From Imbricaverruca yamaguchii (Eukaryota > Arthropoda > Thecostraca > Neoverrucidae), in contig JAOTOL010001270.1 in the NCBI GenBank assembly GCA_034440575.1, positions 191,001-255,000 on the forward strand: a stretch of 64,000 nt of DNA, read 5' to 3'. Under the pieces are notes generated by a model. The model ran no database searches, was not told the DNA's origin, and saw only the letters and a list, made by a program, of their open reading frames with translations. Of the stretch, positions 2,874 through 62,912 are shown piece after piece (the stretch's first letter is position 1; each line of letters starts with the position of its first letter). The position numbers and the translations under genes are program-made.

Positions 2874-2968
2874 TCAGCGGCCGCCCCTGCCGCGTCCGCG
2901 ACTGTAGCCTCCGCGACTCTTCGGCGGCGGCGACTTGGGCCTGAGCGCTTCAATCCGCTCCGTGCACC
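2874..2968 (-). CDS. METTL14 exon 8 with stop
   Basis: GG completes a Gly codon, then [20 protein letters not shown] and a short tail of RGR/RGG type, with TGA at 2874-2876. Acceptor GGTTTCAG|GG. The [14 protein letters not shown] block is diagnostic of METTL14, and the RGG tail, which helps bind RNA in the human protein, is much shortened. Confidence 0.93.
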
Positions 2969-3595
2969 CTGAAACCAGGCACGCTCACGGTTATGTGCGC
3001 CGGTGCAGAGCCACTGTATGACACGTGCACTGGGGGAGCCAGTCTTCCTTGTACTAGCAGAAAAGATACAAACTGAGCGGCAGTACGATCATCACGTTGT
3101 CCAGAGGCTTACAACGGCATTATACAGACCCACTGAATATGCACGGAAGAAAATCTGCATTCTTCCATGATAATAATAATAGTAATAATACTAATTATGT
3201 AAATACAGATACTACAAATAATACTAATATTACAAAGAATACTAATATTACCAATAATACTAATAATACCAATAATACTAATATTACAAACATTACTCAT
3301 AACATTACAAATACCAATGCTGATCTTAACAATACAAATACCAATAATAGGAAAAATACAAATTCAAAATAATAAAAATACACGACCGAAATCCGCTCGC
3401 GCCACCGCCGCTGCCACCGGCGGCGGCGGTGGCGGTGGCGGTGGCGGTGGCGGTGGCGGTGGCGGTGGCGGTGGCGGTGGCGGTGGCGGTGGCGGTGGCG
3501 GTGGCGGTGGCGGTGGCGGTGGCGGTGGCGGTGGCGGTGGCGGTGGCGGTGGCGGTGGCGGTGGCGGTGGCGGTGGCGGTGGCGGTGGCGGTGGC

Positions 3596-3629
<34 letters not shown>

Positions 3630-6600
3630 ATGCACATCAAAGCGCACCACGGAACGGGCGAGTGGCACCAAGGCGTGCTTGGCGCCAAACGAATACCACC
3701 GGTGCTGACTATCCGTCGGGCATAATTTCGGTGTGACTGGGCCAATGTGCTGTACGCGAGGCACATACCTTCACCTTCGCGCGAAGGTGGCGCGAGGTGA
3801 TGTTTCGCGTGAATCGACAATCACCCACAGGCTTAGCACGCGATACGGGAATCGTATCGTTCCGAGTATCGTCAATTTAGTGCACCAGGCAGGCTCGGTT
3901 TTAGCAGGAATAACTGGTGAACCAATAAACCGATTCACACGAACCCGACGCCACGGTGTAGTCACCACAGTCGCCATGGTCAGCCACGACAGTCCGAGTC
4001 GCCACGGTGAAGCCAAGACAGTCGCCACGGTGTAGCCACGAGTCCCCACGATGTAGCCACTAGTCGCCACGAGTCGCCATGGTGCAGCCAAGACAGTCGC
4101 CACGCTCGACAACGCGACCAATTTGATCTCACGTGTCGTGTCCACACGGGCAGCGGTGAGACGCCAAAGCAGTCCTTATCGCCGCTCTCCATGATTGGTT
4201 CTGGTGCGAAAAAACCCGGGTAAGACGTCCAAACCCCGCTGCTTGCAGTACTCGGGTCCATGCAACGCCTATGCTTTTAAATGCCACCATCGCTACCTGC
4301 TGTGCCCCGTGGTGCCGGCATTGTGACAAGAGTGGTGCATGTGTCGTGGCCTAGAATATCGATTCTGCTTCTCGTCGAATTTACACTCTGCAAGACGCTA
4401 TTTTCTGGTTAAGAGTGGGACGTACGGATGGTTCCAATCGCTGTGATGCCCATGGTACCTGTACATTTTCCCACCGAAGATACTTTGGGTACAAGCAAGA
4501 CTGCCCCTAACAACTACGTAACAGGTTTCACTTTCGGTCTTCTTAAGTGGCTCAATATTCTTGCACAGGGCTCGGCTAAAATTTGGATATCCTGCGTATC
4601 AAAAAATAAATAAGGATACTGTTCCTGAGAATGCCACACAGCAACTTCAAAAATAAAAAGGCGAAAAAATGGGGTACCGACTATTGAGAAGAGGTAGCGA
4701 GCGAAGAGACGCAGCGATGGTGATCCACTAGATCACCCCCCGGGGGGAGTCGTCCTGCCACTACACCCGGGACCCGGCCGGGTGAGGTTGGCAGGGTGAG
4801 GGTTGGCAGGGTGAGGGGTGAGGTTGGCCAGGCACGGTGGCCTGTCCCCCACCACGTCTCCCGCCCACCGCGCGGGTTCGACTCACCGGTGGTCATGTTG
4901 GCGCCTACGAAGTGGCCGTTGTAGACGTCCGGGTCGAAGTTCGACGAGGTCAGGCCGGGCCCCACGGTCAGCCAGCCGGGCCGGATGGTGGACTCGCGGC
5001 CAAACAGGTGTAGTCTGTCAACAACGGCCCACTGTCATATACTGGCCAAACAGGTGTAGTCTGTCAACAACGGCCCACTGTCATATACTGGCCAAACAGG
5101 TGTAGTCTGTCAACAACGGCCTCACTGTCATACTCTGGCCAAACAGGTGTAGTCTGTCAACAACGGCCCTCTGTCATATACTGACCAAACAGGTGTAGTC
5201 TGTCAACAACGGCCCGCTGTCATACTCTGGCCAAACAGGTGTAGTCTGTCAACAACGGCCCACTGTCATATACTGGCCAAACAGGTGTAGTCTGTCAACA
5301 ACGGCCCACTGTCATATACTGACCAAACAGGTGTAGTCTGTCAACAACGGCCCACTGTCATATACTGGCCAAACAGGTGTAGTCTGTCAACAACGGCTCA
5401 CTGTAATACTGGCCAAAAGTAGTCTGTCAACAACGGTCACTGTCATACACTGACCAAACAGGTGTAGTCTGTCAACAACGGCCCTCTGTCATATACTGAC
5501 CAAACAGGTGTAGTCTGTCAACAACGGCCCACTGTCATACTCTGGCCAAACAGGTGTAGTCTGTCAACAACGGCCCTCTGTCATACTCTGACCAAACAGG
5601 TGTAGTCTGTCAACAACGGCCCTCTGTCATATACTGACCAAACAGGTATAGTCCGTCAACAACGGCCCACTGTCATACACTGACCAAACAGGTGTAGTCT
5701 GTCAACAACGGCCCTCTGTCATACTCTGACCAAACAGGTATAGTCCGTCAACAACGGCTCACTGTCATACACTGACCAAACAGGTGTAGTCTGTCAACAA
5801 CGGCCCTCTGTCATACACTGACCAAACAGGTGTAGTATGTCAACAACGCCCTCTTCTACACTGACCAAACAGGTATAGTCCGTCAACAACGGCCCTCTGT
5901 CATATACTGACCAAACAGGTGTAGTCTGTCAACAACGGCCCACTGTCATATACTGACCAAACAGGTATAGTCCGTCAACAACGGCCCTCTGTCATATACT
6001 GACCAAACAGGTGTAGTCTGTCAACAACGGCCCTCTGTCATACACTGACCAAACAGGTATAGTCTGTCAACAACGGCCCTCTGTCATACTCTGACCAAAC
6101 AGGTGTAGTCCGTCAACAACGGCCCTATTCTGACCAAACAGGTAGTCGTCAACAACGGCCACTGTTATACTGACCAAGCGTCAACAACGGCCCTCTGTCA
6201 TATACTGACCAAACAGGTATAGTCTGTCAACAACGGCCCTCTGTCATACACTGACCAAACAGGTGTAGTCTGTCAACAACGGCCCTCTGTCATACTCTGA
6301 CCAAACAGGTATAGTCTGTCAACAACGGCCCACTGTCATACACTGACCAAACAGGTATAGTCCGTCAACAACGGCCCTCTGTCATATACTGACCAAACAG
6401 GTATAGTCTGTCAACAACGGCCCTCTGTCATATACTGACCAAACAGGTATAGTCCGTCAACAACGACCATGTACGTTTGGTGATCACTGTTCGTATAGGG
6501 CAGCCCACATGATTCAATGCCACTGGTCACCCAACAATCATGGGGACAGTACATTGGCGTACAACACAGCAGGCACAGTGCGCACAAGTTCACTGAACTC

Positions 6601-12600: not shown

Positions 12601-15313
12601 TTGATCAAAGTACGCCTTCGAAATTCCATGAAGCGTTTTCAAATCTCCTAGAAACGCTGCTATAGGTCCATAGTTCTTCAATATCATAAATTGTATGAAC
12701 TTCCGGAGTCGTATGGAATTGTATAAACAACCTTTTACCCCGTTTCTTAACCAGCCTGGACGCGTCTCTGGCAAGCATAAGTACCACAACTTTCCAACTC
12801 ATCTAATCAATGGTCTTCTTTCAACATCGCCTGCCAAGATTGGTGAGCAACGCTCGAATACTTTCGATGATTATGACAAAAGCCAACAGTATGAGAGCAG
12901 CAAGTCGAAAGTTACTTTGCTCTGAACGTTGCCTGCATAAATATCATCATGACCATTCTAATATAAAAATGCATTAAGTTACTTTGCCTCGTGTATATTC
13001 GGGTATCTTGGGGTACATTCCCTTCGTCACACAACATAAAAGCAAGTAATTCCAACTACAGAGAACTACACCCAACGGTTGAATTATCACTGCCATATTC
13101 TATTATCTATGTCACGTCGTGCCTAGCTAAGCATACGCTTTTTGACCCCAGAGACGCCTTCAATGATGATAAGTACAAGACATACATTTATGCACATTTG
13201 CTTACATTGGTCATACACAGCGGTGCCTATTGCGGACATGTTTATCAAAAGCACTAAAGTTAACTGAAGTAAGGTACATATTTTTTTGGTGGCGGGCCTC
13301 TTTTCAAGCCTATCGCATCTATCTGTTTTTCCTTGGTAGACATGTACGAAGGAGAAAAACATCCGGAAGCTACTGTTCATCATAATCTGTGATGAACAGT
13401 ACATGCAGCATTTTTCTCCTTCGTCCTGGTGCAGCAATGCAGGGTGTACATATTTACCAAGGAAAACCAGATAGCTGCGATAGGCATTAAATCCCCCCCC
13501 AATGACTAGTTTACTCTAGTTAACATTAGTGCTCTGGATACCATTTTTTTACGGTAGGCACCGCCGTGTGTGACCAATGTAATCAAATGTGCATAAATGT
13601 ATGTATTGTACCTGTCATCATTGAAGGCGTCTCCGGAGTTTAAAAAAAAAACATATGCTTAGCAAGGTATGAAATCACATGGAAAATAAAGCATGACAGT
13701 AAGAATTAGACTGTTAGATGGAATTCCATGTTTTTTTGTGGTTTAAAGAAGGGTTGTACCCGATCATACACCGAGAGCAAAGTGGCTTTCGGCTGTAGTA
13801 TCTAATTATGGAGGAAAGGTCGTCGCATGATATTGTTGAAATGATATGTTCCTCGCCAGAGCGCTTAATAATTTATATCACTAGAAATTGCCACTATGTC
13901 AAAACAAAAGTTGGAAAAACCACCAAATGCACTAGATAATCGCTCCAAGTGTTCAGGAGCTACAAACAAAAACGACGATGGGTCGGGAATCGGCAGGGGT
14001 GTGACTTTGCACCATTCCCACTCCCGCAAAAGAGCAAATTCCGTGCATCGGCACACCTCCGCAGCACGCGCCTGCGAGCCTTCAGACGATGTTATCGAGA
14101 CGCGGTCGCATCATGCTGAATGGCACCTGGCACGGCCGAGACGGAAGAGCAGCGGACGTTCCGCAGATGAAGGTCATGTGGTGGACGTACCGTATTAGAG
14201 CACCACCAACTGCGACACATCTCCGAACTGGGCGGGCATCAGTCGAACTCGTCACCGTCCAAGGCCGTCTCAGTTGCATTGTTAGCAACTACCGGCACGG
14301 AGTACGAAGTCCTCTCCCAAGCAGAGTTGGGTTTTTCCACAGGCTCCCTGTGTTCCGGAAGCAATCTTTGATAAATATCCAAGCCGCTCGAATGGTGTGC
14401 AAGGGGACTCCGGGACTACAGTTAGATATAGATAAAGTGACAGAATGAGTTAGTAAGAGAGATAGGGATAGGGATAGAAATATAGATAAAAATAGAGAAT
14501 GAGAATGAGAATGAGAATGAGACAGAGACAAAGACAGAGACAAATACAGAGACAGAGACAAAGACAGAGACAGAGACAGAAACAGAGACAGAAACAGAGA
14601 CAAATACAGAGACAGACAGAGAGAGACAGAGAGACAGAGAGACAGTGAGGCAGACAGATACAGAGACAGATACACAGAGACAGATACAGAGAGACAGAGA
14701 CAGAGACACAGAGACAGAGACACAGAGACAGATACACAGAGACAGAGACACAGAGACAGAGACAGACGAGAGAGACAGAGACAGAGACAGAGACAGAGAC
14801 AGAGACAGAGACAGAGACAGAGACAGAGACAGAGAGAGACAGAGACAGAGACAGAGACAGAGACAGAGACAGAGACAGAGAGAGACAGAGACAGAGACAG
14901 AGACAGAGACAGAGACAGAGACAGAGACAGAGACAGAGACAGAGACAGAGACAGAGACAGAGACAGAGACAGAGACAGAGACAGAGACAGAGACAGAGAC
15001 AGAGACAGAGACAGAGACAGAGACAGAGACAGAGACAGAGACAGAGACAGAGACAGAGACAGAGACAGAGACAGAGACAGAGACAGAGACAGAGACAGAG
15101 ACAGAGACAGAGACAGAGAGAGACAAGACAGACAGACAGACAGAGACAGAGACAGAGACAGAGAGAGAGACAGAGAGAGAGACAGAGACAGAGACAGACA
15201 GAGAGACAGAGAGACAGAGAGACAGAGAGAGAGAGAGAGACAGAGAGACAGAGAGACAGACAGTGACAGAGACAGAGAGACAGACAGACAGAGAGACAGA
15301 GAGACAGAGAGAC

Positions 15314-15344
<31 letters not shown>

Positions 15345-48657: not shown

Positions 48658-49487
48658 AAATGAAATTTAATTTTGATAAGTGCAAAATCATGCATGTAGG
48701 TCAGCAGCATATGAAGGCTCCATACTTGATGGGTGGCCAAGCACTATCAGTGACTCAACAGGAGAAGGATTTAGGTGTTATTCTACGCACAAAATTGGGG
48801 CATCAGAACAGACCAAGGAATCCAGAAAGAAGGCACTGAGAATGCTTGGGGCAATAAATAGGAATGTATCATACAGAAGTGAGGAAGTGATCAGGAAGCT
48901 TTACTGTGCATATGTCAGGCCACATTTGGAGTACTGCATCCAAGCTTGGTCTCCTAGCTAAGAAAAAGATTGTTGGCTTTTAGAGAGAGTACAAAAGAGG
49001 GCTGCAAAAATGGTTAATGGCATAAGGAACCTGGCATATGAGGAAAGATTGAAGAAATTGAATATGTTTTCACTTAGATATAGAAGGCTGAGAGGAGATC
49101 TCATCAAGGTCTTTCAATTTGTCCATGGTCTGGAGAGGGGATATCTTGGGGAAATGTTCGAATTGAACAGAAATGATGCAATTAGAGGTCATAAATTCAA
49201 AATTAAAGTTAACCACAGCAGAACAAGGTTAAGGCAGACTTTCTTCACCAACAGGGTAGTAGAACACTGGAACCAGCTGCCAGAAAACATTGTCAGCAGC
49301 AGCACATTGAACATCTTTAAAAACAGCATAGACAATCATTATAAGAATAGAGGGCTTGCTTTTCAGTATTACAGGGAGGACTGATTGACAGATTTGGTGG
49401 GCAACTGGTTCAGTGTACAGAGTGCATCCAAGAAGGGCCCTTGTGGCTCATAGTTGCACTAATCTTTTATGTCTTTATGTCTTTATG
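48658..49487 (+). mobile_element. LINE 3' fragment
   Basis: Matches 26203-27030 at high identity: the ORF2 C-terminus (with [20 protein letters not shown] and [20 protein letters not shown]), 3' UTR and three TCTTTATG-type units. One stop and one frame break. About 220 bp of RT sequence lies between its start and the end of the 40985-42875 fragment, so both may be one element split by later sequence. It ends about 560 bp before the MTMR start codon. Confidence 0.92.
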
Positions 49488-50048: not shown

Positions 50049-50072
50049 ATGGAGATCATCAAGAAGCCGAAG
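50049..50072 (+). CDS. Myotubularin exon 1
   Basis: MEIIKKPK, matching the family N-terminus M-E-x-I-x-x-x-K before V-E-x-V. CACCATGG is a good start context. Donor AAG|GTGGGG, phase 0. Confidence 0.78.
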
Positions 50073-53000
50073 GTGGGGGACTGGGCGGCAGCTGAGTCAC
50101 CACGTCTCTGTATTTCAGCATGCCAGGCCGTCTCTCTTTCGATTCTGATCCGGGTTATTCCTTTCTGCACTAGAGACGAATGGAGTAGTGTTGCAGCAAT
50201 TGCTGCAGTGTACATGCTTAGCTATTGGTATGTGCACTGCAGCTATTAGCATGTGGGTGGTATTTGAACATGTTTTGAAGTCGATACAACTCGTAATGAA
50301 TTCGTTCCGGTGTCGAGTCGACTTGGAATATTTCAGTTTGGCTGGCGTTGTTTGGCCAACAGTGCAGAGATGAAGAAGCAAGTTCATTTGGCTCAAGTGA
50401 GAGCATACACACAGCCTGTTTTCATGTATTGCATAGATAGTTTGTGTTTTTCTGTGTGATCGTTGGAGCTCGTTCCTATGTTGGCTCTTCATTGGTCAGG
50501 TTTGAGGTCTGACCTGGTGCGATACACCATTTGGAGCATTTTCTTCATGAACGTGTTGGATGGAACTGTTTACCATCTATTCCACCTGGCACATTTGCCA
50601 ATGGTAACGATGCGAATTGTTATCGGATTTTATGACACTGGTGCATAGCAATGCTGGTGGTGATGCTGGCCTGACCGGCTGTTGCCGACGGTGCTGGTGT
50701 CAGGTGGAGAAGGTGCGCATGCTGGAGCGGTTCTCCTCGGCCGAGCCGGCCCCGGGTACCCTCTACCTCACGGCCACTCACCTCATCTTCGTGGACCCCA
50801 GAAACAAAAAGGAGACATGGGTGAGTGTGTAGCAGTGCTGGCAGCCTGAGTGGTGCTGTCAGCCAGGTGTGAGCATTCAAAAAGTAGTGGTCCGACGTTT
50901 TCCTCACGGACGTTCACTTCGGGTGATGTATGATTGAACATCTCGCCAACCCCAGTTCCATGGGCGCTGTGTGACCAACGCAGTCGATGCCCCTAATCCC
51001 AAATAGTCGAACCAACCCCAGTTCCACAAGACCTTGTGGCTCGTATTATGCTACATGTCGAGCCTTTCCCTCCACGTCTCCGCCTTTCTAGCTGCAACTG
51101 CTTTGTCGCGATCTTTTGTCCTGCGCCGAGATCAAGCTGGCCGGACGATCCCTGGCCGGCAGATATCCCACATGCACATCGCGTCGGTGGAGAAGTTGGC
51201 GCTGACCCCCGGCGGCTCGCCGCTGCTGGTGCGCTGTAAAAACTTCCGCTCCGCCACGTTCATCATCCAGCGCGAGCCGGACTGTCACGACATCTTCATG
51301 TCGCTGCAACAGCTGTCACAGCCGGGTATGTCTCTACAACAGATGCCGCAGCCGGGTATGTCGCTGCGACAGCTGTCACAGCCTGGTATGTCGCTGCAAC
51401 GGCTGTCACAGCCAGGTATGTCGCTGCAACAGTCGTCACAGCCGGGTATGTCGCCGCGACAGCTGTCACAGCCGGGTATGTCGCTGCGACAGCTGTCACA
51501 GCCTGGCATGTCGCTGCGACAGCTGTCACAGCCTGGTATGTCGCTGCGACAGCTGTCACAGCCGGGCATGTCGCTGCGACAGCTGTCACAGTCGGGCATG
51601 TCGCTGCGACAGCTGTCACAGTCGGGCATGTCGCTGCGACAGCTGTCACAGTCGGGCACGTCGTTGCAACAGCTGTCACAGTCGGGCGTGTCGCAGCTGT
51701 GTGGCACGTGTGTGCAACAACTGCCGAGTTTTAGGGCGCATCGAATGTCGCCACTGTCGCCACATGTTGGGGCGTACTGCTGCAACGGCCGCCCAGCGGG
51801 GAATGTGCTGCAGCAGCCGGCTGTCAGGATGTGTTGTTTCAATGGCCGGATTGTCATTGAATGGTCAGCCAGATGTGCCCGGCGGAACGTCTGTATGGCT
51901 ACTTCAGTGTCACGCGTGACGGGTCGTGGTGGCAGAAACGTCAGCATGCTGATTTTCGGTCAGAATGTCTCGACTTCCTAACCCACCACAGCCTAACCAG
52001 AACCCTGCCTAGTAGAACACTAACTGTTGAAATTTAGGAAACCATGGGCGATTAATTGCCCCAAGGTGTTGAAATTCATTTATATTTGGTTCGTCGATGC
52101 AGCATGCGAGACGTTTCACCGGAGTTGCCTTCGATGTCCAGATAACAGTCTGCGTTGCGGCGGTGGGTCAGAGCGGGGCCGAGATGGCGGTGTACTGTTA
52201 TCAGTGCACGGCCACTGACGTCCTCTGCCGCGGCTGACAACACGTAGCAAGAGCACTAGTTCGAGCAGAGCGTCAGCCCAGCCTCACGTGTTTGTGTCTG
52301 GCCCCACCGTATGCATCTGAGTTCGGTGTGCCACTGCCTCACCGCGGCGGCGTCGATGTTTCAGCGGAGCTGGAGAAACTGTACTGTTTCCAGTACACAC
52401 CGCGCAGTACAGAGCTGAAGCAGGCCGACGGCTGGCATCTCTACAGTCTGTCGGGCGACTTCAGGTCGGTGCTGAGCTCGTGCGGGCTGTTGTGATCTCT
52501 GGTGTCTGGTCGCCGAAGGTGTGATGTTGATTGGTACTTGTTGCACGTCCTGTCTCCAATATGTAGCGAGGCTCAGCTCCGACCGGGAGCCGCCGAGCTT
52601 CTCGTGGCCTGGGTGGCAGCTGGTGCGGTGGTGCCTGATTGTCGGACAACCGAGCTGATCGCGATCGATCTGACTCCCGCACGCGTTCCGGAGTGCGGGG
52701 ATTCATGTTTCTAATATACCGGGGTACGGTCCGAAATAGTGGATTCGCCACCTCCCCCCTCCTAGGGTCTCGGAAACTGCTGAAGCTAGAAGCACGACAT
52801 TTGTAGGGTAAATAGCGGCTGTAGTGAACTTGCTGCCGTACTATTTCACCCCCAGCCTTCAGGCTCGAGTGAGGTCAGTACGCTGCGCCGACGAAACCTT
52901 TGTATGGGCGCTAAATGACCAAACCTGGTCAGCCTGTTTGTCCGACTGCTCCTGCGGGAAATTTCCCAATCAACTGCGACTGTCGACGCAGTTTTTTATG

Positions 53001-56000
53001 TTGGCAAATAAATTTCGAAAATTCGTTTGATATAGGAAGCGCTTATCAATTTTTAACATTTACACGATTTAATGACAATATCCCTGCTCATGTATGGGAT
53101 ATAGTCGAAAAGCAAGACGGGTGGGCAGATTCTCCCCCCCCCTGCCTCCCCCGATGTGCGTGTTAAAGCGGGTGTTGGTCCTGTGTCTTCTGGCGTGTGT
53201 TGCGGCTCATGTATCTTATGGCTGTTATCTCACGATCTCGTGCGTCTTATGGCCAGTGCTGGAGGACACCGTGTCTCGTGACAGGTGCTATTGTGTCAGC
53301 CCGGTCGGGGGCCGGTGCCACACACCGTACGTGTCTCGCTCGCTGATGGTGCTCGTGCGGCCGCCTCAGGAGGATGGGCGTGCCGGTGCCACACACCGTA
53401 CGTGTCTCGCTCGCTGACGGTGCTCGTGCGGCCGCCTCAGGAGGATGGGCGTGCCGAACTCGCTGTGGTGTCTGACGGACGTGAACGGCGCGTACGAGGT
53501 GTGCGACACGTACCCGCCGCTGCTGTGCGTGCCGGCGGCGGCCGGCACCGCCGTCCTGGTGGGCTGCTCACGCTTCCGCAGCAAGGGCCGCCTCCCCGTG
53601 CTCAGCTACCGGTACCGCAACGACGTGAGTCGGCTAGTTTCCGTGCTGGGACCGCAACGTGAGTCGGCTAGTTTCCGTGCTGGGACCGCAACGTGAGTCG
53701 GCTAGTTTCCGTGCTGGGACCGCAACGTGAGTCGGCTAGTTTCCGTGCTGGGACCGCAACGTGAGTCGGCTAGTTTCCATATGGGCACCATTTGTTTGTT
53801 GGTTTATTGGTTGGTTCACGACACACTATGCACATTCACGGCTAATGGCGCCGCCCACACTTTCGCCGGTGGGCCGCGGGATTGGACAATGTCCTGAGTG
53901 GCGCTAGAGTCGAACCCGGGACCTTTGGTACCCATGGCCCGACACCTTAACCACTCGGCCATCCCCGCCCCCCATATGGGCACCAGAACGACATGAGTCA
54001 GGAGTTTCCTTACCTGCACAACATCGGCGCGAGTCGTTTCCGTATCTCGTGACGCACCCCCCCCCACCGTCAAGGCCCACGAATCCTGCGTCGCAGCGAG
54101 CAACGACGAAGATGTTACTGTCGACAAATTTGCTTTAAATAGCTTTGTTGCTTTGTTCGATATCCTGATTCCTCTTTTGGAATGGGCATGTACTGTTGCG
54201 TCAGCTAGGCAATGTCACCGGTCAGGACTAATGCTGCCATCCAGATAAATTTCCTGCGTGGATGTGCCAGCGTGTTGTTCCAGGTGGCGGTCCGTTGGCG
54301 TGTTCTTCCAGCAGTTGACACGCTGATGTGTGTTTCAGGCTACGATATGTCGCTGTAGTCAGCCCCTGTCCGGGTTCAAGGCGCGCTGTCTGGAGGACGA
54401 GCAGATGCTGGAGCTGATCCGGGCGACGAACCCCTCCGACAGCCTGATGTACGTGGTGGACACGCGTCCCAAGGTGAGAGCCGCCGTGCATCCTGCACGC
54501 TCTTGCGTTGCGTGCAATTTTCACTGTATGTAGTGTCTCGAGCGGACTACAGGGAAGTATCAGTGTGGCAGGACATGGGTAAGAGTGGAAAGATGCGAAG
54601 GAGTTGGTGCAGTGGTATATATACATATGGGTGTTTGTGGGTATAGCTGGCGGATTTTTTTATTTCATTCGAGAATAGGCTGCGCTGACGGCTATGTTAA
54701 CCCTCGCAGTGCAGAATAATTATCTACCACTCACAATGCAAGGAGTAGTCTCAGTTTACCCCCTCCCTCCCCCCCACACACTGGTTTTTCTTCTAAGCAA
54801 GGTAGAGATGCAGTAAATGGCATGGTGCAATGACGTCCTATAGCTTTTAAGGTTGTTTCACGAAGTTTTGTATACCACTTTTTGTCGACCTTCCAGATCA
54901 CGGCAAACAGGGAAATGAGTGCAGTCGAACACCCGTCTTCGCCATAGTCTTCTGGTTGTAGTAAAGCAAATATGATTCCGTGCTTCAGTGTTGATGGTAT
55001 GCAAACTGAAGAAAACCTCAACGTCGCCAATCCGTCAAGGACATATACTAGGACATGTGTAATTATCTACCGAAAATGACAATTTTGGAAACAACTGGCT
55101 GTCAGGATAAGGCAAGGTGTGGAACCAATCCGAAACGTACAGTAATATGCATAGTGGTACTACACAACGAACATTTTCAGTGAAGAGCTAGTCTATACCA
55201 TGAACTAAACCGGAATATAATATGCAGCCTGGGATGCATATGATTCATACCTGGCGATCTGGCTACGAACTACTGTACTAAGTGGTGAGTCATATATCTA
55301 ATGCATGCTGAATTTCTCTCCAGATAAATGCCATGGCGAACCGAGCGTCCGGGAAAGGCTACGAAAACGAGAACTTCTACCAGAACATAAAGTTCTACTT
55401 CTTCGGCATCGAGAACATACACGTGATGCGTAACAGCTTGAACAAGCTCGTCGAGAGTAAGTGTGCTTGGTTGGTCGGCTGGGCGGTCGGTCGGTCTGTC
55501 GCGGTAGGGTGGATAGGTGGTTGGTTGGTTGGTTGGTTAGGTGTTTGGGTGGTTGATGGATTGGTTGAGTGGTTGGGTGGTTGGTTGATTAGTTGGGTAG
55601 GTGGCTGGGTGGCTGATTGATTAGTCGGGTAGGTGGTTGCTGGTTGATTGGCAATGTGCAACGAGTCATCAATTGTTGTCAGCGGTGCGCCATATTCGCT
55701 GCGTATCTTGGCTGACGTTGCGGCGCGATGTGTAGCGTGTCACCAGCCACTGATGTAGCACGTCACCAGTCGCTGGTGTTGCAGTGCGTCGCCAGCCGCT
55801 GATGTAATGCATCACCAGCCGCTGATGTGTAGCGCGTCACCAGCCGCTGATGTAGTGCATCACCAGCCACTGATGTGTAGCGCGTCACCAACCGCTGATG
55901 CAGCGCGTCATCAGCCGCCGATGTTGCAGCGCGTCATCAGCCGCTGATGTTGCAGTCCATCACCAGCCGCTGATGTTGCAGTGCATCACCAGCTGCTGAG

Positions 56001-59000
56001 TGTGCGTCACCAGCCGCTGATGTAGTGCGTCACCAACCGCTGATGTAGCGCGTCATCAGCCGCTGATGTTGCAGTGCGTCACCAGCCGCTGATGTAGTGC
56101 ATCACCACCCGCTGATGTAGCGCATCACCGGCCGCCGATGTTGCAGCGTGCGAGGGCAAGACGTCGGCGATGACGACGTTCCTGTCCGGCCTGGAGTCGG
56201 CCGGCTGGCTGCGGCACGTGCGCTCCACGCTGGAGGCGGCCCAGTTCGTGGCGACGTCCGTGTCGGCCGGCGTCACCGTGCTGGTGCACTGCAGCGACGG
56301 ATGGGACCGCACCTCGCAGACGTGCGCGCTGGCAGAGCTGCTGCTCGACCCGCACTACCGCACCGTCGACGGCTTCCAGGTGGGCGCTGTCGCGGCTGGC
56401 GGTACCCGCCGTCACGGCCGGCTGGCGGTACCCGCCGTCACGGCCGGCTGGCGGTACCCGCCGTCACGGCCGGCTGTCGCACGCCAGCGGTTCGGTCGGT
56501 CGGTGTTCGAGTCACGAATTGGCGTCGGTTGTTAGTACCTAGTCCCCCCCCCCACACACACACACGCACCCAATAGCTCTGTTGGATGCGGTCTGGTGAT
56601 GTACAACTCAGCTGTAAATTTGCATGTTAGTTGAAATTACTAAGTTGCTTAATTCAGGGCCCAGCTTGACCTTAGGTAACCTCTTCAGATTGTAAGTCAA
56701 TTGGTGGTTAATTTGAACCCTAAAACTTGACTTTGTGTCTATTTTTACCTCTGAATGCAAGACCACGTTACGTTCGGCACTATGCCTGAAGATTCCGACC
56801 GGAATGAAACACTCCGACCTGGTCCGACGCTTGCCCTTTGAGTTTAGTTGTAGCAAGTCGCATATTTAATGCCATATGGAACATGGACGAAAGATCTGAC
56901 CGAGCCATCATATCGAAAGGAGTCTCGTCGTAGGATATCTCATGGTGGGACGAAAGCAGAATACTTTTCGCATATCTGTTCTATTTTCCATTTCGGTTGC
57001 ACCGCCAATCTCGCCGAATTGTGACGTTGATGGCAAATGTATTTATCATTATCAAAAGATCGACATATGCTCCTTTTGTGTGGTAGCATAGTAACTAGGA
57101 CTCCTCAGGTACTTTCCTTGTCAAGTCCCTACTATCTTTCGCGGTCTCCTTGCGATTTGGCACGGCCTCCGCGCAGTCTGCTACGGCCTCCATGACCGCA
57201 CGGCATTCCTGCGATCTGCTCCAGCCTCTACGCGGTCTGTTGTGGCCTCTCTATGATCTGTCCCGGACTCTATACTCCATCATGGTCTCTATGATCTGCC
57301 ACGGCCTCTCTATGATCTGTCCCGGACTCTATACTCCATCATGGTCTCTATGATCTGCCACGGCCTCTCTATGATCTGTCCCGGACTCTATACTCCATCA
57401 TGGTCTCTCTATGATCTGCCACGGCCTCTCCATGATCTGTCCCGGACTCTATACTCCATCATGGTCTCTATGATCTGCCACGGCCTCTCTATGATCTGTC
57501 CCGGACTCTGCACTCCATCATGGTCTCCATGATCTGCCACGGCCTCTCTATGATCTGTCCGGACTCTGTACTCCATATGTCTATGATCTGCCACGGCTCT
57601 CTATGATCTGTCCCGGACTCTCTCCATCATGGTCTCTCTATGATCTGCCACGGCTTCTATGATCTGTCCCGGACTCTATACTCCATCATGGTCTATGATC
57701 TGCCACGGCCTCTCTATGATCTGTCCCGGACTCTGCACTCCATCATGGTCTCCATGATCTGCCACGGCCTCTCTATGATCTGTCCCGGACTCTGTACTCC
57801 ATCATGGTCTCTATGATCTCCCACGGCCTCTCTATGATCTGTCCCGGACTCTATTCTCCATCATGGTCTCTCTATGATCTGTCCCGGACTCTGTACTCCA
57901 TCATGGTCTATCTATGATCTGCCACGACCTCTCTATGATCTGCCACGGCCTCTCTGTGATCTGTCCCGGTCTTCCTGGTCCGTCACGGCCTCCCCGATCT
58001 GCCACGGCCCCTCTGTGACCCGTGACCGTGCCGGCGGCCGCAGGCGCTCATCGACAAGTGCTGGCTGGCGCACGGCCACAAGTTCACCGACCGGTGCGGC
58101 TTCATCCAGGTGGACTCGAAAGAGGTGTCGCCCATCTTCACGCAGTTCATTGGTGAGGCCGGCGCGCGCGCGCACTGCCGGCTCAGGGCGCGCGGTCGTG
58201 CGTATCGAGCGTGGTGTGCCGTGGTGAGCTGGTGCGCCGTCACCACTGGTGCGCCGTCACCACTGGTGCGTCGTCACCACTGGTGGGCCGTCAGCACTGG
58301 TGCGGTCCGGTGTTGCCGCCATCTATGGCCGGGTCTGATGTGTGTGCTGCACTAAGCCTGTCTATTGGCCGCGTTGTGGCGAACTGGTGCGTTGTGGTGT
58401 AGCCTGATTTGGTAAGCGTGTGCTGGTTCGGTGGTTTGCGTACGTGGAGTGTTGAGTTCAGAAAGCTGCGTCCTGAGACTGATTTGCTGGTGCTGCGCGG
58501 CTTTTATTCTGTCGCCTGCATGGTCAACCATTGCGACGTACATTTTCTGCGCCTCAGTTAGTTGTGGACTCGTTGGCGATGTTCGTCGGCAATGTGATCT
58601 GGCCGGCCTTCGCAACGTGCAAGACCCGCCCACGCGAAGATTCCCAAACAACTTATGCTCGAGTCACTCCATAACTTCCTGAAGCATGACGCAACTCCTG
58701 TCTAACGTTGAGTGCAATGCAGCACCTGACCCTGCATGTGGAAGTGGTGTGTCAGCTGACCTGACCTGACCTGGCCTGACTTGTCACAGACGCGGTGTGG
58801 CAGCTGACTCAGCTGGAGCCGCAGGCATTCCAGTTCAACGAACGGTACCTGCTGACACTGCATGACCACCTGTTCTCCTGCCAGTTCGGCACCTTCATCG
58901 GCAACTGTCACAAAGACCGCGAGGATCTCAGGTCAGTCATCGGCAACTGCCATAAAAACCGCAGAAACTGAAATCAGTCATCGGCAGTTGTCAGAAAGAC

Positions 59001-62000
59001 CGCCAGGATCTCGAGTCAGTTATCGGCAACTGTGATAAAGACCGCAAGGATCCCAGGTCAACGATCGGCAACTATCACAAAGACAAATTGGATACAATTT
59101 TATCAAGAGATATTAGGAAGTGGTGGTGCAGTGCTTTCCAGACCATGTACTGTTAACGCACCAACATCAGGACAGGACACGTACGTGATGTAAAGCTACA
59201 CCTCTAAAGATCGTGCAGTCGTGTCCTTCATTCCATTAACTTATTCTAAATTAGTCCATATTTGCACGTATAAAAATGAAATGCTGGCAATGGAAATGCA
59301 TCGAATTAGTAAGTACACGTTATCATGTACGGTGTTATCTAGCGAGGATGGGATGGCTTGTTGCGCTGGTGAAGTGGTGGCAGTATGGTTTTGTTAACTG
59401 TGCACAGTGCGTGAACATCTGGTTCATGTTACCAACAGGCTGTCTTCACGCACCTACTCGCTGTGGGGATACACAGCACAGCACCTGGCCGAGTACCTCA
59501 ACCCGCTGTACGACCCGAACCTCTACCAAGACGTGATGCAGGTCAACCTGGCGCCGCAGGCCATCAGGTCAGTCGGGGGCAACGTGGTGCTGCAGGTCAT
59601 CAGGTCGGCCAGCGATAACCCGGCGCTGCAGGTCATCAGGTCTGTCAGGGGCAATCTGATGCTGCAGGACACCAAGTCGGCCAAAGTTAACCTGGCGCTG
59701 CAGGCCATCGGATCAGTCGGTGCCAATTTGCTTCCCACGTTTGGTTAGGGACCCCAGTTATTAGGAAGGTGAAGACCACGGATAAGATCCACGAAGTTTG
59801 AACGGAGTACCGACAAATTTCTGTGTCAGGTCAAAGCTATGATATCGGCGTACCCGTGCCATGTCCCAAAACTTGTGGAGCTGACCCACCCCTTGCATGG
59901 CATTGCTCGGTGTGCGTTATGCGACACGAGTAGGTGTTGGAGGAGCGAGGTCAGCGGAAGACATGTCTGCCGTGCTGTAGGCGCAGCTGCGGTGGCGAGC
60001 TGACTGTGTGTCCAGCTTCTGGCTCGGTGTGCTGACAGGTGTGTATGCCTAGGTTCTAGTGCGGTATGCTGACTGGTTGGCGTGTGGATTCCCAGGTGCT
60101 GACGGGTGCAGTGAGTGGTATGCTGTCTGTGTGGCCCAGCGGTTGCTGGCTGGTGTGCCCAGGTTCTGACGCGGTATGCTGCGGTCCCAGGTTCTGACGC
60201 GGTATGCTGACTGGCGTGTGTGTGCCCAGGTTCTGACGTGGTATGCTGACTGGCGGTGTGTGCCCAGGTTCTGACGTGGTATGCTGACTGGCGTGTGTGT
60301 GCCCAGGTTCTGACGCGGTATGCTGACTGGCGTGTGTGTGCCCAGGTTCTGACGCGGTATGCTGACTGGCGTGTGTGTGCCCAGGTTCTGACGTGGTATG
60401 CTGACTGGCGTGTGTGTGCCCAGGTTCTGGCGCGGGATGTACACTCGGTTCGAGTTCGGCGTCCATCCGCGCGAGACTCTGCCGGAGGTGGCCGGCTTCC
60501 TGGCCGACCACAACCAGTCGCTGCGACAGCACATCCGTCTGCTGGAGAAGGTGCCGCCCGGCTGTTGTGCTGCGCATCTGGACGACGGGGTTTTGCGGCT
60601 AGGATGAGAATGATTTGTGTATTGGATCTGTCGTCAGACCGGAAACAAGCTGTGTGTTAGCTTTACTGCCCGGCTGGGAACGAGCTGTGCGTTAGGTCTG
60701 TTGTCAGGTTGGAAACAAGCTGTGTGAGGTCTGATGTCGGGCTGGGAACACGCTGTGTGTCAGGTCTGATGTCGGGCTGGGAGCACGTGTCAGGTCTGAT
60801 GTCGGGCTGGGAGCACGCTGTGTGTCAGGTCTGATGTCGGGCTGGGAACACGCTGTGTGACAGATCTGATGTCGGGCTGGGAGTACGCTGTGTGTCAGGT
60901 CCGATGTCGGGCTGGGAGCATGCTGTGTGTCAGGTCTGATGTCGGGCTGGGAACACGCTGTGTGTGTCAGGTCTGATGTCGGGCTGGGAGCACACTGTCA
61001 GGTCTGATGTCAGGCTTGGGAAAAGCGTTATGTCAGGTCGGCCGTCTAGTTGGGAACGAGCTGTGTATCAGGTTTGCTCCCGAGGTGGGGACACGCTGTG
61101 TGCCAGATCTGCTGTCTGGCTGCAGGTGAGATTTTGTGTCGTCCCTCCTGGTTCGAGGGAAGGTCGGGTGGGGAGGGGGGGTGAAGAAAACATGCTCCTA
61201 TGGCTGTCGGTCAGAATTTGATTTAATTCTGGTCGTTCGACCCTGTGCTCACGTTTTACATCCATTTTGTGTCTGTTGATCCCGTTTCCCATGTTAACTT
61301 TCACTAACCTGACGTTCAGCTACGAAACTTAACGAGTTATGCTTTTGCTAATCGCAATCCTAGTCTAAGTTCTGATTCGTAACTAAGCAACCAAGCCAGC
61401 TAGACTCATGGCCGCCCTGACTAGACTGTGCTCTTAATTAGCTGTGCTTCGCTGGCGTTGCTGCAGTTGATCCGCCAGCTGACATCACGGTCTTGTGGCA
61501 GAGGGTGGCGATGCTCGAGGGCCGTATCAATAACTGTGACGAGGAGCAAACCTCCGACACTGGAACCGGCTCCGGCCCTGATAAACTCATCGACCGGAGG
61601 CACATCAATGACCAGGTGAGACTCCACTGTGTATCTGCATCCAGGTGAGACTCGATTGCGTTGAGACTCGACCACGTATTAACCAGGTGAGACCCGACTG
61701 CATATCGACAGATAACACCCGAGTCAAACCCGACCACCTGCAGACGAGATGAGACCCGACGACTTCAGCGACCGCATGCCGGCTGGTGCGCGTCAGTGAT
61801 AAATTATCTGTGAAATAGGGTGGAATATACCACTTTCTGAACACTCAATCGACATCCTTCTCCAAAAAGTATCGACATCCTGGTCCTTGGAACCTACGCC
61901 ATCAGCTCGAATTTGAGTCTGTACATCAAAATCATATTATATGACACTAATTCCAAGGCAAATTTCGACGTCCTTCGGTGCTCGTTTCGACATCTCACAC

Positions 62001-62912
62001 CTAACGAAAAACCATTATTTTAACCCTGGTGCGCGTCACAAATCGTTCAGAGGTGGTGATCCGATGGGGATATGTTGGCGTGCCACCGTGACCGTGACCT
62101 TATGGTGGGGGTGATAAGGTGACTGTGATCCGACGATGGGAGCTCCAATGTGACCGTGACTCGGTGGTGGGAACGATAAGGTGACCCTGACCCGATGATG
62201 GGGCTATGATTTGGCGGTGACTTGATCGGTTATCATGTGATCATGACCTGGCGGTGAGATGCTGACCCGGCAGATGATTGAGTGCTGTTGAATGGCTACA
62301 CTTTGACGGCCACGCCGTTTTGCGAGCGGGGATTTCCGCTCTCACATCATCTGACCTGCTGATGTGTGATGTATTGATGTGTGTGACGTGTTGATATTTG
62401 ACGTGTTGATGTGCTTGTGTATGTTTGCGTGACATGTCGATGTATGTGACCTTTTGAGGTGTGTGACGTAATGATGTGTGTAACGTGTTGAGGCGTGTGG
62501 CGTGTTGATCTGAGTAACGTATTGATGTGTGGTGATGTTAATGTGTGTGACGTGTTGACGTGTGTAGCGTGTTGATGTGTGTGGTGTGTTGTGTGTGACG
62601 TGTTGATATATGTGTAACGTACTGATGTGTGTGACATGCTGATGTGTGTCTGCATTTTTACATGGCCGTGCCGTTGGGCTTCATTGCGAGGTAAACTGGC
62701 GTGGCGCGGTGATTGTCCCGCCGCCCGAAACCTTGACCCGGCCCGGTGACCTGACGGGGCGCACCGGCCAGGTGAACGCCAATCTGCAGCTGGCGCCGCT
62801 GACCTGTGAACAGCTGACGCGCGAGCTGGAGTCGGTGGCTCTGGACTGGACGGCGCCGCGCGGCGTGCGCGAATGCAGCTGCACCACGGCCTTCGACCAC
62901 TTCAGCAAGAAG
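50049..62912 (+). CDS. Myotubularin-related phosphatase, MTMR6/7/8 group (14 exons, 3' partial)
   Basis: Phosphoinositide 3-phosphatase acting on PI3P and PI(3,5)P2 of endosomal membranes. Fourteen exons with consistent phases sum to 1851 nt, 617 codons, without a stop. Order: PH-GRAM domain (exons 1-4; GTLYLTATHLIFVDP, MHIASVEKL), then the phosphatase (exons 5-12; MGVPNSLW, CRCSQPLSGFKARCLEDE, VDTRPK, ANRASGKGYENE, GIENIHVMR, FLSGLESAGWLRH, VLVHCSDGWDRTSQ, EVSPIFTQF, SLWGYTAQHLAEYLNPLY), a short coiled-coil-like segment (exon 13), and ECSCTTAFDHFSKK (exon 14), the likely start of a FYVE-like zinc finger. The CX5R signature is intact, so it should be active rather than a pseudophosphatase. 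The remaining C-terminus lies beyond the window. Several exon edges are amplified into intronic minisatellites. Confidence 0.93.
50704..50820 (+). CDS. Myotubularin exon 2 (GRAM)
   Basis: 39 codons, VEKVRMLERFSS through PGTLYLTATHLIFVDP to KKETW. Acceptor GTGTCAG|GTG, donor TGG|GTGAGT. Confidence 0.95.
51163..51325 (+). CDS. Myotubularin exon 3 (GRAM)
   Basis: ISHMHIASVEKLALTPGGSP through KNFRSATFIIQREPDCHDIF to SLQQLSQP, ending phase 1. Acceptor GGCAG|ATA, donor CCGG|GTATGT. The last 27 bases plus the donor recur about 12 more times downstream, in frame. Confidence 0.92.
51298..51695 (+). repeat. 30-bp in-frame repeat of exon 3 end plus donor
   Basis: About 13 units ATGTCGCTGCGACAGCTGTC-ACAGCCGGGT, each coding MSLRQLSQPG without stops. 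The first is the true exon end. Units ending CCGGGTATGT or CCTGGTATGT keep a GT donor; those with GGGCATGT lost it. The frame stays open to about 51979. Confidence 0.95.
52365..52464 (+). CDS. Myotubularin exon 4
   Basis: AELEKLYCFQYTPRSTELKQ, ADGWHLYSLSGDF, ending phase 2. Acceptor GTTTCAG|CG, donor AG|GTCGGT. Confidence 0.9.
52465..53300. other. Myotubularin intron 4, left part
   Basis: No further gene recognised; small open frames only. Confidence 0.5.
53295..53455 (+). repeat. 71-bp duplication including exon 5 acceptor
   Basis: Two full units and a partial third. The first has GCCGCCTCAG|GAGGATGGGC-GTGCC at 53370 and then returns to intron sequence (GGTGCCACACACCG); the second leads into the real exon at 53441. 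Confidence 0.92.
53441..53624 (+). CDS. Myotubularin exon 5
   Basis: RMGVPNSLWCLTDVNGAYEV, CDTYPPLLCVPAAAG, SRFRSKGRLPVLSYRYRND. Acceptor CCTCAG|G, donor GAC|GTGAGT, ends phase 0. Confidence 0.95.
53612..53775 (+). repeat. 34-bp repeat of exon 5 end plus donor
   Basis: The exon end CCGCAACGAC|GTGAGTCGGC is followed by four more units of GACCGCAACGTGAGTCGGCT-AGTTTCCGTGCTGG. Each repeats a consensus GTGAGT donor (53625, 53659, 53693, 53727, 53761). Confidence 0.95.
53791..53971 (-). mobile_element. tRNA-derived SINE, copy 5
   Basis: On the minus strand GGGGCGGGGATGGCCGAGTGG, GTCCCGGGTTCGACTC and the shared body, ending in a CCAACAAACAAA tail. Perfect 14-bp target duplication CCATATGGGCACCA at 53777-53790 and 53972-53985. 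The best-preserved copy in the window, in myotubularin intron 5. Confidence 0.92.
54339..54473 (+). CDS. Myotubularin exon 6
   Basis: 45 codons, ATICRCSQPLSGFKARCLED to LMYVVDTRPK. Acceptor TTTCAG|GCT, donor AAG|GTGAGA. Confidence 0.96.
54474..55323. other. Myotubularin intron 6
   Basis: Moderately AT-rich, no gene or repeat of note. Confidence 0.5.
55324..55456 (+). CDS. Myotubularin exon 7
   Basis: INAMANRASGKGYENENFYQ, FYFFGIENIHVMRNSLNKLV, ending phase 1. Acceptor CTCCAG|ATA, donor GAGA|GTAAGT. Confidence 0.95.
55500..55645. repeat. GGTTGGTTGGGTGG-type short repeat
   Basis: Imperfect GGTTG tetramer/pentamer array just after the exon 7 donor. Confidence 0.85.
55700..56146 (+). repeat. 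Minisatellite CACCAGCCGCTGATGTTGCAG, including exon 8 acceptor sequence
   Basis: About 17 units of 22-30 bp. Five or so have GATGTTGCAG followed by TGCGTC or CGCGTC, closely matching the real acceptor GATGTTGCAG|CGTGCGAG at 56147. Confidence 0.9.
56147..56379 (+). CDS. Myotubularin exon 8 (catalytic)
   Basis: TCEGKTSAMTTFLSGLESAG, then VLVHCSDGWDRTSQTCALAE and DPHYRTVDGFQ. The catalytic cysteine codon is 56290-56292, with CX5R complete and the D-G-W-D of active PI3P phosphatases. Donor CAG|GTGGGC, phase 0. Confidence 0.97.
56380..56485. repeat. 26-bp repeat, three units
   Basis: GGCTGGCGGTACCCGCCGTC-ACGGCC directly after the exon 8 donor; it does not include exon sequence. Confidence 0.9.
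56486..57239. other. Myotubularin intron 8, left part
   Basis: No gene recognised. Confidence 0.5.
57240..57965. repeat. Minisatellite, CTATGATCTGTCCCGGACTC core, about 12-13 units
   Basis: Two alternating half-units, CTATGATCTGYCACGGCCTCT and CTATGATCTGTCCCGGACTC-TRYACTCCATCATGGT, about 56-60 bp together. No exon sequence is included. Confidence 0.95.
58044..58152 (+). CDS. Myotubularin exon 9
   Basis: ALIDKCWLAHGHKFTDRCGF, VDSKEVSPIFTQFI, ending phase 1. Acceptor GCCGCAG|GCG, donor ATTG|GTGAGG. Confidence 0.96.
58153..58789. other. Myotubularin intron 9
   Basis: Contains a short GTGCGCCGTCACCACTG repeat, four units at about 58228-58305, and a TGACC run before the exon 10 acceptor. Otherwise nothing recognised. 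Confidence 0.5.
58790..58931 (+). CDS. Myotubularin exon 10
   Basis: DAVWQLTQLEPQAFQFNERY, LHDHLFSCQFGTFIGNCHKD, ending phase 2 (AG). Acceptor TCACAG|AC, donor AG|GTCAGT. Confidence 0.96.
58894..59085 (+). repeat. 42-43-bp repeat of exon 10 end plus donor
   Basis: The exon end ATCGGCAACTGTCACAAAGA-CCGCGAGGATCTCAG|GTCAGT recurs four more times with increasing divergence. Donor-like GT is kept in some (GATCCCAGGTCAAC) and lost in others (CTGAAATCAGTC). Confidence 0.92.
59439..59567 (+). CDS. Myotubularin exon 11
   Basis: LSSRTYSLWGYTAQHLAEYL, NPLYDPNLYQDVMQVNLAPQ, AI, ending phase 2. Acceptor CCAACAG|G, donor AG|GTCAGT. Confidence 0.94.
59542..59735 (+). repeat. 36-bp in-frame repeat of exon 11 end plus donor
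   Basis: Five units of AACCTGGCGCTGCAGGCCAT-CAGGTCAGTCGGGGGC, twelve codons each. The first is the true exon end. Three keep ATCAG|GT. The open frame continues to a TAG at about 59746. Confidence 0.92.
59736..60039. other. Myotubularin intron 11, left part
   Basis: No gene or repeat recognised. Confidence 0.45.
60045..60423 (+). repeat. 38-39-bp satellite made of exon 12 acceptor and start
   Basis: Seven clear and two degenerate units GTGTGTGCCCAG|GTTCTGAC-GCGGTATGCTGACTGGC. The last runs into the real acceptor GTGTGTGCCCAG|GTTCTGGCGC. In each clear decoy the second exon codon is TGA in place of TGG. Confidence 0.96.
60424..60550 (+). CDS. Myotubularin exon 12
   Basis: FWRGMYTRFEFGVHPRETLP to SLRQHIRLLEK. 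Acceptor GCCCAG|G, donor AAG|GTGCCG, phase 0 at the end. Confidence 0.94.
60640..61110. repeat. About 36-bp minisatellite, GTCAGGTCTGATGTCGGGCTGGGA
   Basis: About 12 units with GGCTGGGAACACGCTGTGTG, in intron 12. No exon sequence in the units. Confidence 0.93.
61111..61501. other. Myotubularin intron 12, right part
   Basis: No gene recognised. Confidence 0.45.
61502..61615 (+). CDS. Myotubularin exon 13
   Basis: 38 codons, RVAMLEGRINNCDEEQTSDT to DKLIDRRHINDQ; a short helical then acidic linker. The acceptor TTGTGGCAG|AGG is preferred because it keeps phase 0 and a plausible peptide; an acceptor at 61467 in the same phase is less likely. Donor CAG|GTGAGA. Confidence 0.7.
61607..61710 (+). 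repeat. Repeat of exon 13 donor, three units
   Basis: GACCAG|GTGAGACTCCAC, ATCCAG|GTGAGACTCGA and AACCAG|GTGAGACCCGAC at intervals of 30-45 bp. Confidence 0.8.
61711..62771. other. Myotubularin intron 13
   Basis: Contains GGTGACCGTGACCCGATGAT-type repeats at 62080-62230 and a GATGTGTGTGACGTGTTGAT array at 62350-62650. No gene recognised. Confidence 0.6.
62772..62912 (+). CDS. Myotubularin exon 14 (start of FYVE-like finger)
   Basis: 47 codons, VNANLQLAPLTCEQLTREL to RGVRECSCTTAFDHFSKK. The acceptor CGGCCAG|GTG fits phase 0, but the frame is open upstream to about 62650, so the left edge is uncertain. Donor AAG|GTGAGC is good. CSCTTAFDHFSKK resembles the first half of a FYVE zinc finger; the HHC/CG half must be in the next exon. 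Confidence 0.8.

Follow-up and report, generated by a model that had tools for sequence, protein, structure and literature searches.

Tandem arrays containing exon edges in a barnacle match amphioxus mirages and show no excess at edges under simple shuffling

In a 64,000-nt stretch of DNA from the barnacle Imbricaverruca yamaguchii (the window), several separate tandem arrays, built from different units, extend over real exon edges, donor and acceptor alike. Structurally these arrays belong with the 'mirages' of amphioxus, for which the barnacle is a new host. Repeats exceed chance, but under simple shuffling their placement at edges does not. We consider it probable that minisatellites grow at random, are removed from exon interiors and are tolerated at edges, which gives the appearance of seeding at edges.

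The window carries METTL14, an MTMR6/8-type phosphatase gene (MTMR) and two trypsins, both of which sit within a 30-kb intron of METTL14. The named proteins closest to its genes come from Pollicipes and Amphibalanus; amphioxus as the source of the DNA is ruled out, since barnacle proteins are the nearest named ones. The gene models are as follows:

50049–62912, + strand: MTMR6/8-like gene, exons 1–14 modelled, further exons past 62912
50049–50072, 50704–50820, 51163–51325, 52365–52464, 53441–53624, + strand: MTMR exons 1–5
54339–54473, 55324–55456, 56147–56379, 58044–58152, 58790–58931, + strand: MTMR exons 6–10
59439–59567, 60424–60550, 61502–61615, 62772–62912, + strand: MTMR exons 11–14
2874–40169, − strand: METTL14 gene, exons 1–8
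40169–40104, 39577–39407, 38052–37909, 37238–37003, − strand: METTL14 exons 1–4
36272–36063, 35836–35664, 5014–4887, 2968 to about 2874, − strand: METTL14 exons 5–8

Joined MTMR exons 1–14 give a single open frame of 617 codons in a model that uses the exon-adjacent splice sites, and GT or AG is present at all 40 splice edges of the main model set (MTMR and METTL14). The METTL14 exon 8 acceptor at 2968, additional to this set, is also AG, and a search nearby for copies of its edge found none. METTL14 exon 4 contains a frame-breaking insertion of 65 bp; a search of the window for a second copy returned nothing beyond 10-base matches. TRF arrays occupy 23% of the entire window, and a further array was seen at 62930–64000. 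Tandem unit lengths in MTMR and METTL14 range from 17 to 145 bp without a common family, and an Rfam scan of the whole window at gathering thresholds gave 0 matches.

TRF arrays (period ≥10) hold 10 of the 40 modelled splice edges: MTMR 3D, 5A, 5D, 8A, 10D, 11D and 12A and METTL14 4A, 5A and 7A, where the number is the exon, A the acceptor and D the donor. A strict 24-base test retains eight edges (the donors of MTMR 3, 10 and 11 and the acceptors of MTMR 5 and 12 and METTL14 4, 5 and 7) and loses MTMR 5D and 8A; the same test on reversed sequence as a control found 0/40. Copy counts below include the real edge and require identity at ≥70% of 28 bases, lowered to 60% for MTMR 10D and 11D.

51298–51694, + strand: MTMR 3D, end of exon 3 and donor, 30-bp unit, 13 copies (TRF)
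53311–53456, + strand: MTMR 5A, acceptor and start of exon 5, 71-bp unit, 2 copies (TRF)
53623–53778, + strand: MTMR 5D, 34-bp array from the exon 5 donor (TRF; weak)
55730–56149, + strand: MTMR 8A, 145/23-bp array (TRF)
58895–59084, + strand: MTMR 10D, end of exon 10 and donor, unit of about 42 bp, 4 copies (TRF)
59544–59718, + strand: MTMR 11D, end of exon 11 and donor, 36-bp unit, 5 copies (TRF)
60186–60439, + strand: MTMR 12A, acceptor and start of exon 12, 39-bp unit (TRF)
61607–61700, + strand: MTMR 13D, CCAG|GTGAGA at the exon 13 donor, 3 short copies (60% threshold)
37199–37453, − strand: METTL14 4A, acceptor and start of exon 4, 2 copies 102 bp apart (TRF)
36234–36530, − strand: METTL14 5A, acceptor and start of exon 5, 2 copies 145 bp apart (TRF)
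35822–35875, − strand: METTL14 6A, first 14 bases of exon 6 again 38 bp upstream (weak)
5000–6465, − strand: METTL14 7A, acceptor and start of exon 7, 46-bp unit, 31 copies (TRF)
18875–19243, + strand: trypsin copy 1, 33-bp unit holding the last codons and stop (TRF)
30930–31395, + strand: trypsin copy 2, paralogous array (TRF)

The first-pass annotation had named 12 splice edges within arrays; eight of them are solid and four are weak. At MTMR 5D the match on the exon side starts only past a 3-base difference and the 24-mer test failed; MTMR 8A was rejected as an edge array, as it covers just 3 bases of exon 8 and failed the same test. No TRF array was found at MTMR 13D, and METTL14 6A lies under the TRF threshold, with intron sides that differ between the two copies. 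That the arrays are not a single repeat family, as also stated there, holds: differing units and periods exclude one common family.

Many copies carry splice signals of their own: GT is found in 7/13 copies of the MTMR 3D array and GC in the remaining 6, while AG is present in all 11 copies of MTMR 12A (a total that includes looser ones reaching back to about 60015) and retained in 23 of the 31 copies of METTL14 7A. The MTMR 3D array leaves the reading frame open (ORF 51007–51981), and the 11D array lies in an open frame as well (ORF 59398–59748). The two MTMR 5A copies are identical at 28/28 bases at the edge, and the ends of this 71-bp duplication share a microhomology of 4 bp (GCCG). MTMR 10D includes 37 exonic bases, and its copies lie at offsets 41, 83 and 125; a preference of edge arrays for periods divisible by three was dropped on account of these offsets. 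In 8/8 strict splice-edge cases the extra copies are on the intron side, and no TRF array overlaps exon sequence by more than 37 bp in MTMR or by more than 40 bp in METTL14 exons 1–6.

The trypsin arrays span the stop codon and contain no splice site. Last codons and stop are present in both copies, as originally described, but the two cases are not independent: the copies form a segmental duplication (90.9% identity across 4,233 aligned columns), which carries one event twice, and the arrays therefore count as one. The paralogous arrays differ, with 8 and 9 matches to CCAGAAGATGAC.

Counting nulls covered MTMR (13 arrays) and METTL14 exons 1–6 (6 arrays); they took in neither the trypsins nor METTL14 exon 8, nor the array at 62930–64000, nor the 30-kb METTL14 intron and the exon 7 array in it. 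All placement P values are uncorrected, and the window was selected because of the pattern. Amplification had been proposed to begin preferentially at coding edges, with comparison to shuffled positions as a check. Within the window, rotating the arrays lent this claim no support: it gave 7 edges against 7.48 expected in MTMR (P = 0.67) and 2 against 2.87 in METTL14 exons 1–6 (P = 0.86). Results were similar for edge-touching arrays (MTMR 7 vs 5.21, P = 0.16; METTL14 exons 1–6 2 vs 2.63, P = 0.85) and in a 24-mer version (5 vs 6.68 and 2 vs 2.71 expected, respectively). Across MTMR and METTL14 exons 1–6, where neighbouring positions are not independent, the repeated fraction was 0.225 at edge-straddling positions (825 positions), 0.253–0.360 in intron bins and 0.042 in exon interiors (2,378 positions). 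Edges are thus repeated about as often as introns, and the data do not demonstrate any mechanism directed specifically at them.

Under the reading that we prefer, short tandem duplications would originate at many intron and gene-flank sites in this minisatellite-rich region, presumably by slippage or short-homology joining, and some would expand. The depletion within exons suggests that arrays there are purged by selection. Edge-straddling arrays would persist because the exon-adjacent copy stays intact and every added copy goes into the intron; the true splice sites would be used normally.

That exon edges are instead preferred starting points of duplication, through replication- or transcription-linked breaks or a bias of G+C-rich edge sequence, appears unlikely to us, although part of the placement data points that way. 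When each gene's arrays were collapsed and single units were placed randomly on tolerated positions, edge-touching arrays were in surplus in MTMR (7/13 vs 1.74, P = 0.0004; G+C-matched 2.40, P = 0.002), also at ≥6 exonic bases (5/13 vs 1.54, P = 0.011; G+C-matched 2.09, P = 0.032). METTL14 exons 1–6 alone showed no excess (2/6 vs 1.25–1.63). Pooling both with G+C matching yielded 9/19 vs 3.97 for any exonic base (P = 0.005), 7/19 vs 3.59 for 6 bases (P = 0.039, about two-fold) and 7/19 vs 3.14 for 12 bases (P = 0.017); for near-exon arrays the values were 9/16 vs 4.98 (P = 0.022), 7/16 vs 4.47 (P = 0.109) and 7/16 vs 3.86 (P = 0.048), respectively. The G+C tolerance (0.075 for separate genes, 0.1 pooled), exonic-base thresholds and overlap limits were the analyst's choices. 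A constrained placement null, its limit set near the observed maximum, gave 7 vs 1.05–2.07 for MTMR (P ≤ 0.0003) and 2 vs 0.54–1.12 for METTL14 exons 1–6 (P = 0.09–0.31). For the 10 non-touching arrays the median distance to an exon is 84 bp compared to 138–144 bp in the null (a median without P value), but clustering near exons was not upheld by mean distance (148 vs 163–168 bp, P = 0.32–0.36). The proposed role of G+C content fared partly well: intronic 24-mers with 55–70% G+C are repeated more than those with 40–55% in 5/5 distance bins, but above 70% there is no further rise in 4/5. With 19 arrays, uncorrected thresholds and a window picked for its pattern, and with no surplus under simple rotation, a roughly two-fold edge preference, perhaps via G+C content, may exist but has yet to be established.

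Edges could also act as lasting anchors, where an exon copy fixed by selection renews the adjoining array and purely intronic arrays decay; we give this little credence. Likeness to the exon copy increases exonward in two of the three arrays tested, METTL14 7A (rho = 0.54, P = 0.002, n = 30, exon copy excluded) and MTMR 12A (rho = 0.73, P = 0.016, n = 10), and in METTL14 7A AG is kept in 14/15 near copies vs 8/15 far copies (P = 0.035). Plain random growth alone does not predict this exonward increase in likeness. MTMR 3D shows no significant trend (rho = −0.43, P = 0.17, n = 12), and the remaining edge arrays have few copies. Equal gradients could also arise through ordinary homogenization within arrays or if selection disfavours false sites that are distant. 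A related proposal, similarly doubtful, is that barnacle exon edges serve as fixed templates from which arrays are renewed at the exon end, pushing introns outward and leaving rows of decoy splice sites. If so, this would be a steady, polar mode of intron growth, and alternative donors could add protein repeats (frame-neutral at MTMR exon 3, 30 bp, and exon 11, 36 bp). Assembly error, in which edge duplications would stem from repeats that were collapsed or expanded or from copies joined wrongly, is highly improbable in our view. The frame-breaking insertion in METTL14 exon 4 speaks for it; against it, substitutions distinguish many copies and MTMR keeps one open frame over 14 exons.

The first-pass annotation knew of no described mechanism. 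The pattern itself was already on record: PMC3087553 and PMC3902484 describe mirages in amphioxus as tandem repeats across exon–intron boundaries, in Adh3, the globins BflGb6 and BflGb9, troponin C and PGBD5. According to PMC3087553, they occur at both boundary types with units of 10–160 bp, and their origin is termed unclear, which agrees with the annotation on that point. As in these accounts, the barnacle arrays are minisatellite-like repeats at 5′ or 3′ boundaries, with a unit length that varies by locus, and many of their copies carry additional splice signals; units span the exon–intron boundary at 8/40 edges by 24-mer and 10/40 by TRF, with donors and acceptors both affected. They differ in their arthropod host, in reaching up to 31 copies and in being known here from genomic sequence alone. 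The AGGT model of intron gain by tandem genomic duplication, as outlined in PMC3443670, likewise involves tandem duplication that copies splice signals, but it duplicates exonic sequence and creates a new intron, whereas the barnacle arrays lengthen existing introns. The arrays also resemble ordinary intronic minisatellites in their tandem units (17–145 bp in these genes), the lack of a common family and the higher frequency in G+C-rich than in mid-G+C sequence; the edge arrays differ from them only by some exon bases in the unit.

Mirage-like repeats, described from amphioxus in the papers cited here, are now found in an arthropod, and their apparent targeting of exon edges largely disappears after allowing for the repeat density of introns. 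Should the remaining two-fold surplus prove true of the whole genome, barnacles would lend themselves well to studies of intron growth, the avoidance of false splice sites and intron gain by duplication.

Among the best named matches, the translation of MTMR, the MTMR6/8-like phosphatase gene (query exons 2–12, 524 residues), showed 83% identity to Amphibalanus amphitrite, and the same query showed 88% identity to Pollicipes pollicipes over 84% of its length; comparison with solved structures led to MTMR6 (2yf0, E 3.5e-196). The METTL14 translation (query exons 1–6, 312 residues) is 91% identical to that of Pollicipes. These matches identify the DNA as that of a barnacle. MTMR exons 1 and 13 and METTL14 exons 4, 7 and 8 were fixed by comparison with homologs. 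A single 617-codon open frame runs across MTMR exons 1–14 (the model ends at 62912), and every edge in the set of 40 is GT or AG. The identity of the two trypsin genes is confirmed by their matches to Pfam PF00089 (E 8.2e-57 and 4.8e-62). The features are arranged as follows:

40169 to ~2874, - strand: METTL14
35663 to 5015, - strand: sixth intron of METTL14, containing both trypsin genes
15653-20875 and 28099-33026, opposite strand to METTL14: segmental duplication with both trypsin genes, inside the 30-kb METTL14 sixth intron

The TRF output comprised 100 rows covering 23% of the window, and merging of rows with a period of at least 10 gave 46 arrays; 10 of the 40 splice edges lie inside a TRF array of such a period. 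We then applied a strict test, in which the 24-mer at an edge (12 exonic and 12 intronic bases) had to recur at ≥19/24 within 1.5 kb. Eight edges passed (8/40), compared to 0/40 in the reversed-sequence control, and every additional copy at these edges sits on the intronic side. The same 24-mer check found no copy near the METTL14 exon 8 acceptor, an edge outside the 40. The splice dinucleotide is kept in 7/13 copies (GT) at the donor of MTMR exon 3, in 11/11 (AG) at the acceptor of MTMR exon 12 and in 23/31 (AG) at the acceptor of METTL14 exon 7. In the array at the latter exon (5014-6453, - strand) AG is kept in 14/15 near and 8/15 far copies. The edge repeats are real; of the twelve splice edges named in the first-pass annotation eight are solid, but four are weak or fail (MTMR exon 5 donor, exon 8 acceptor and exon 13 donor; METTL14 exon 6 acceptor). 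The list was somewhat inflated.

Tandem repeats across exon-intron boundaries have been described in amphioxus as ‘mirages’, with units of 10-72 bp in Adh3 and 150-160 bp in the globins BflGb6 and BflGb9 (PMC3087553). They occur at both boundary types and carry splice signals in many, not all, copies; normal splicing is apparently intact, their length is unstable, and their origin was called unclear, with a role in intron gain proposed (PMC3087553). PGBD5 and troponin C have been added as mirage genes (PMC3902484), and intron gain through tandem duplication has been reviewed (PMC3443670). For barnacles we found no report of boundary-spanning repeats in the open-access literature searched, and none is mentioned in the repeat passages of the genome descriptions of Capitulum mitella and Sacculina (PMC8416341, PMC9582164). 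The barnacle is a new host of an already known type of structure.

Whether the placement at edges exceeds chance depends on the null. The shuffle proposed in the first-pass annotation, with all arrays rotated within the gene, yielded no edge excess in MTMR (7 observed versus a mean of 7.48) or in METTL14 exons 1–6 (2 versus 2.87). Rotating the edge positions in the 24-mer test likewise gave no excess (MTMR 5 versus 6.68, METTL14 exons 1–6 2 versus 2.71). The repeated fraction was 0.225 for edge-straddling 24-mers, 0.277, 0.360, 0.311, 0.253 and 0.305 for intronic 24-mers <50, 50-100, 100-200, 200-400 and >400 bp from an edge, and 0.042 for exon-interior 24-mers: the salient signal in these per-position counts is depletion within exons. 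Shuffling favours chance because shuffled arrays can swallow exons, which real arrays do not.

We collapsed each array to one unit and restricted the placement of units to introns and to positions straddling a single edge. For MTMR, 7/13 units included any exonic base versus 1.74 expected (P = 0.0004; G+C-matched 2.40, P = 0.002) and 5/13 included at least six exonic bases versus 1.54 (P = 0.011; G+C-matched 2.09, P = 0.032); METTL14 exons 1–6 showed no excess (2/6 versus 1.25-1.63). Pooling both with G+C matching gave 9/19 versus 3.97 for any base (P = 0.005), 7/19 versus 3.59 for six (P = 0.039) and 7/19 versus 3.14 for twelve exonic bases (P = 0.017). With near-exon arrays only, the pooled values were 9/16 versus 4.98 (P = 0.022), 7/16 versus 4.47 (P = 0.109) and 7/16 versus 3.86 (P = 0.048), respectively. 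A second selection-aware null placed arrays freely but capped their overlap with exons; under it MTMR showed an excess (7 versus 1.05-2.07) and METTL14 exons 1–6 none (2 versus 0.54-1.12, P = 0.09-0.31), the caps being chosen close to the observed maximum. An approximately two-fold edge surplus is possible, from 19 arrays with uncorrected thresholds in a window picked for the pattern. The claim that arrays are ‘seeded on exon boundaries’ overreaches the evidence.

The last codons and the stop are indeed part of the trypsin arrays, which the first-pass annotation listed for both copies; the two genes, however, belong to one segmental duplication (90.9% identity over 4,233 aligned columns). The end of trypsin copy 1 (18860-18953) is unlike that of copy 2, in that an additional fragment of the 33-bp repeat lies in frame within the C-terminal part of copy 1; the array therefore seems to have extended into coding sequence. 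Long GGGTC/TGGTC 5-bp arrays lie upstream of each trypsin gene (16731-17543, 28875-29589; TRF), and a GAGACA array at 14519-15386 (TRF). A short dispersed element, which we take to resemble a tRNA-derived SINE, has similar sequence at 19640-19820 and 31790-31960, near the trypsins, and at 53800-53975 in an MTMR intron. Open frames resembling pieces of non-LTR reverse transcriptase were seen by eye at 23866-26926, 41330-42740 and 48680-49384. METTL14 exon 4 carries a frame-breaking 65-bp insertion (37135-37199, - strand), absent from the tandem duplicate of the exon's start that lies immediately upstream and with no other copy within the window beyond 10-base matches; it may represent an allele, a pseudogene or an assembly error.

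The simplest account of the edge repeats requires no edge targeting: tandem duplications would appear at many sites, expand and then be filtered by selection, and an edge-straddling duplication would be tolerated because one exon copy remains intact. Slippage or short-homology joining may supply the duplications; in the one case examined, the two-copy duplication at MTMR exon 5, the ends share 4 bp of microhomology. Intronic 24-mers of 55-70% G+C are more often repeated than those of 40-55%, and this higher repetition of G+C-rich sequence somewhat favours edges. Copies closer to the exon resemble the exon copy more at the acceptors of METTL14 exon 7 (rho 0.54, P = 0.002) and MTMR exon 12 (rho 0.73, P = 0.016); at the MTMR exon 3 donor the trend was not significant (P = 0.17). 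The two gradients are compatible with homogenisation or with renewal from the conserved exon copy, and they underlie a less likely reading in which arrays would be renewed from the exon end. Array copies keep an open frame at MTMR exon 3 (ORF 51007-51981) and exon 11 (ORF 59398-59748), so that later donors, if used there, would add 10 or 12 residues to the protein per copy.
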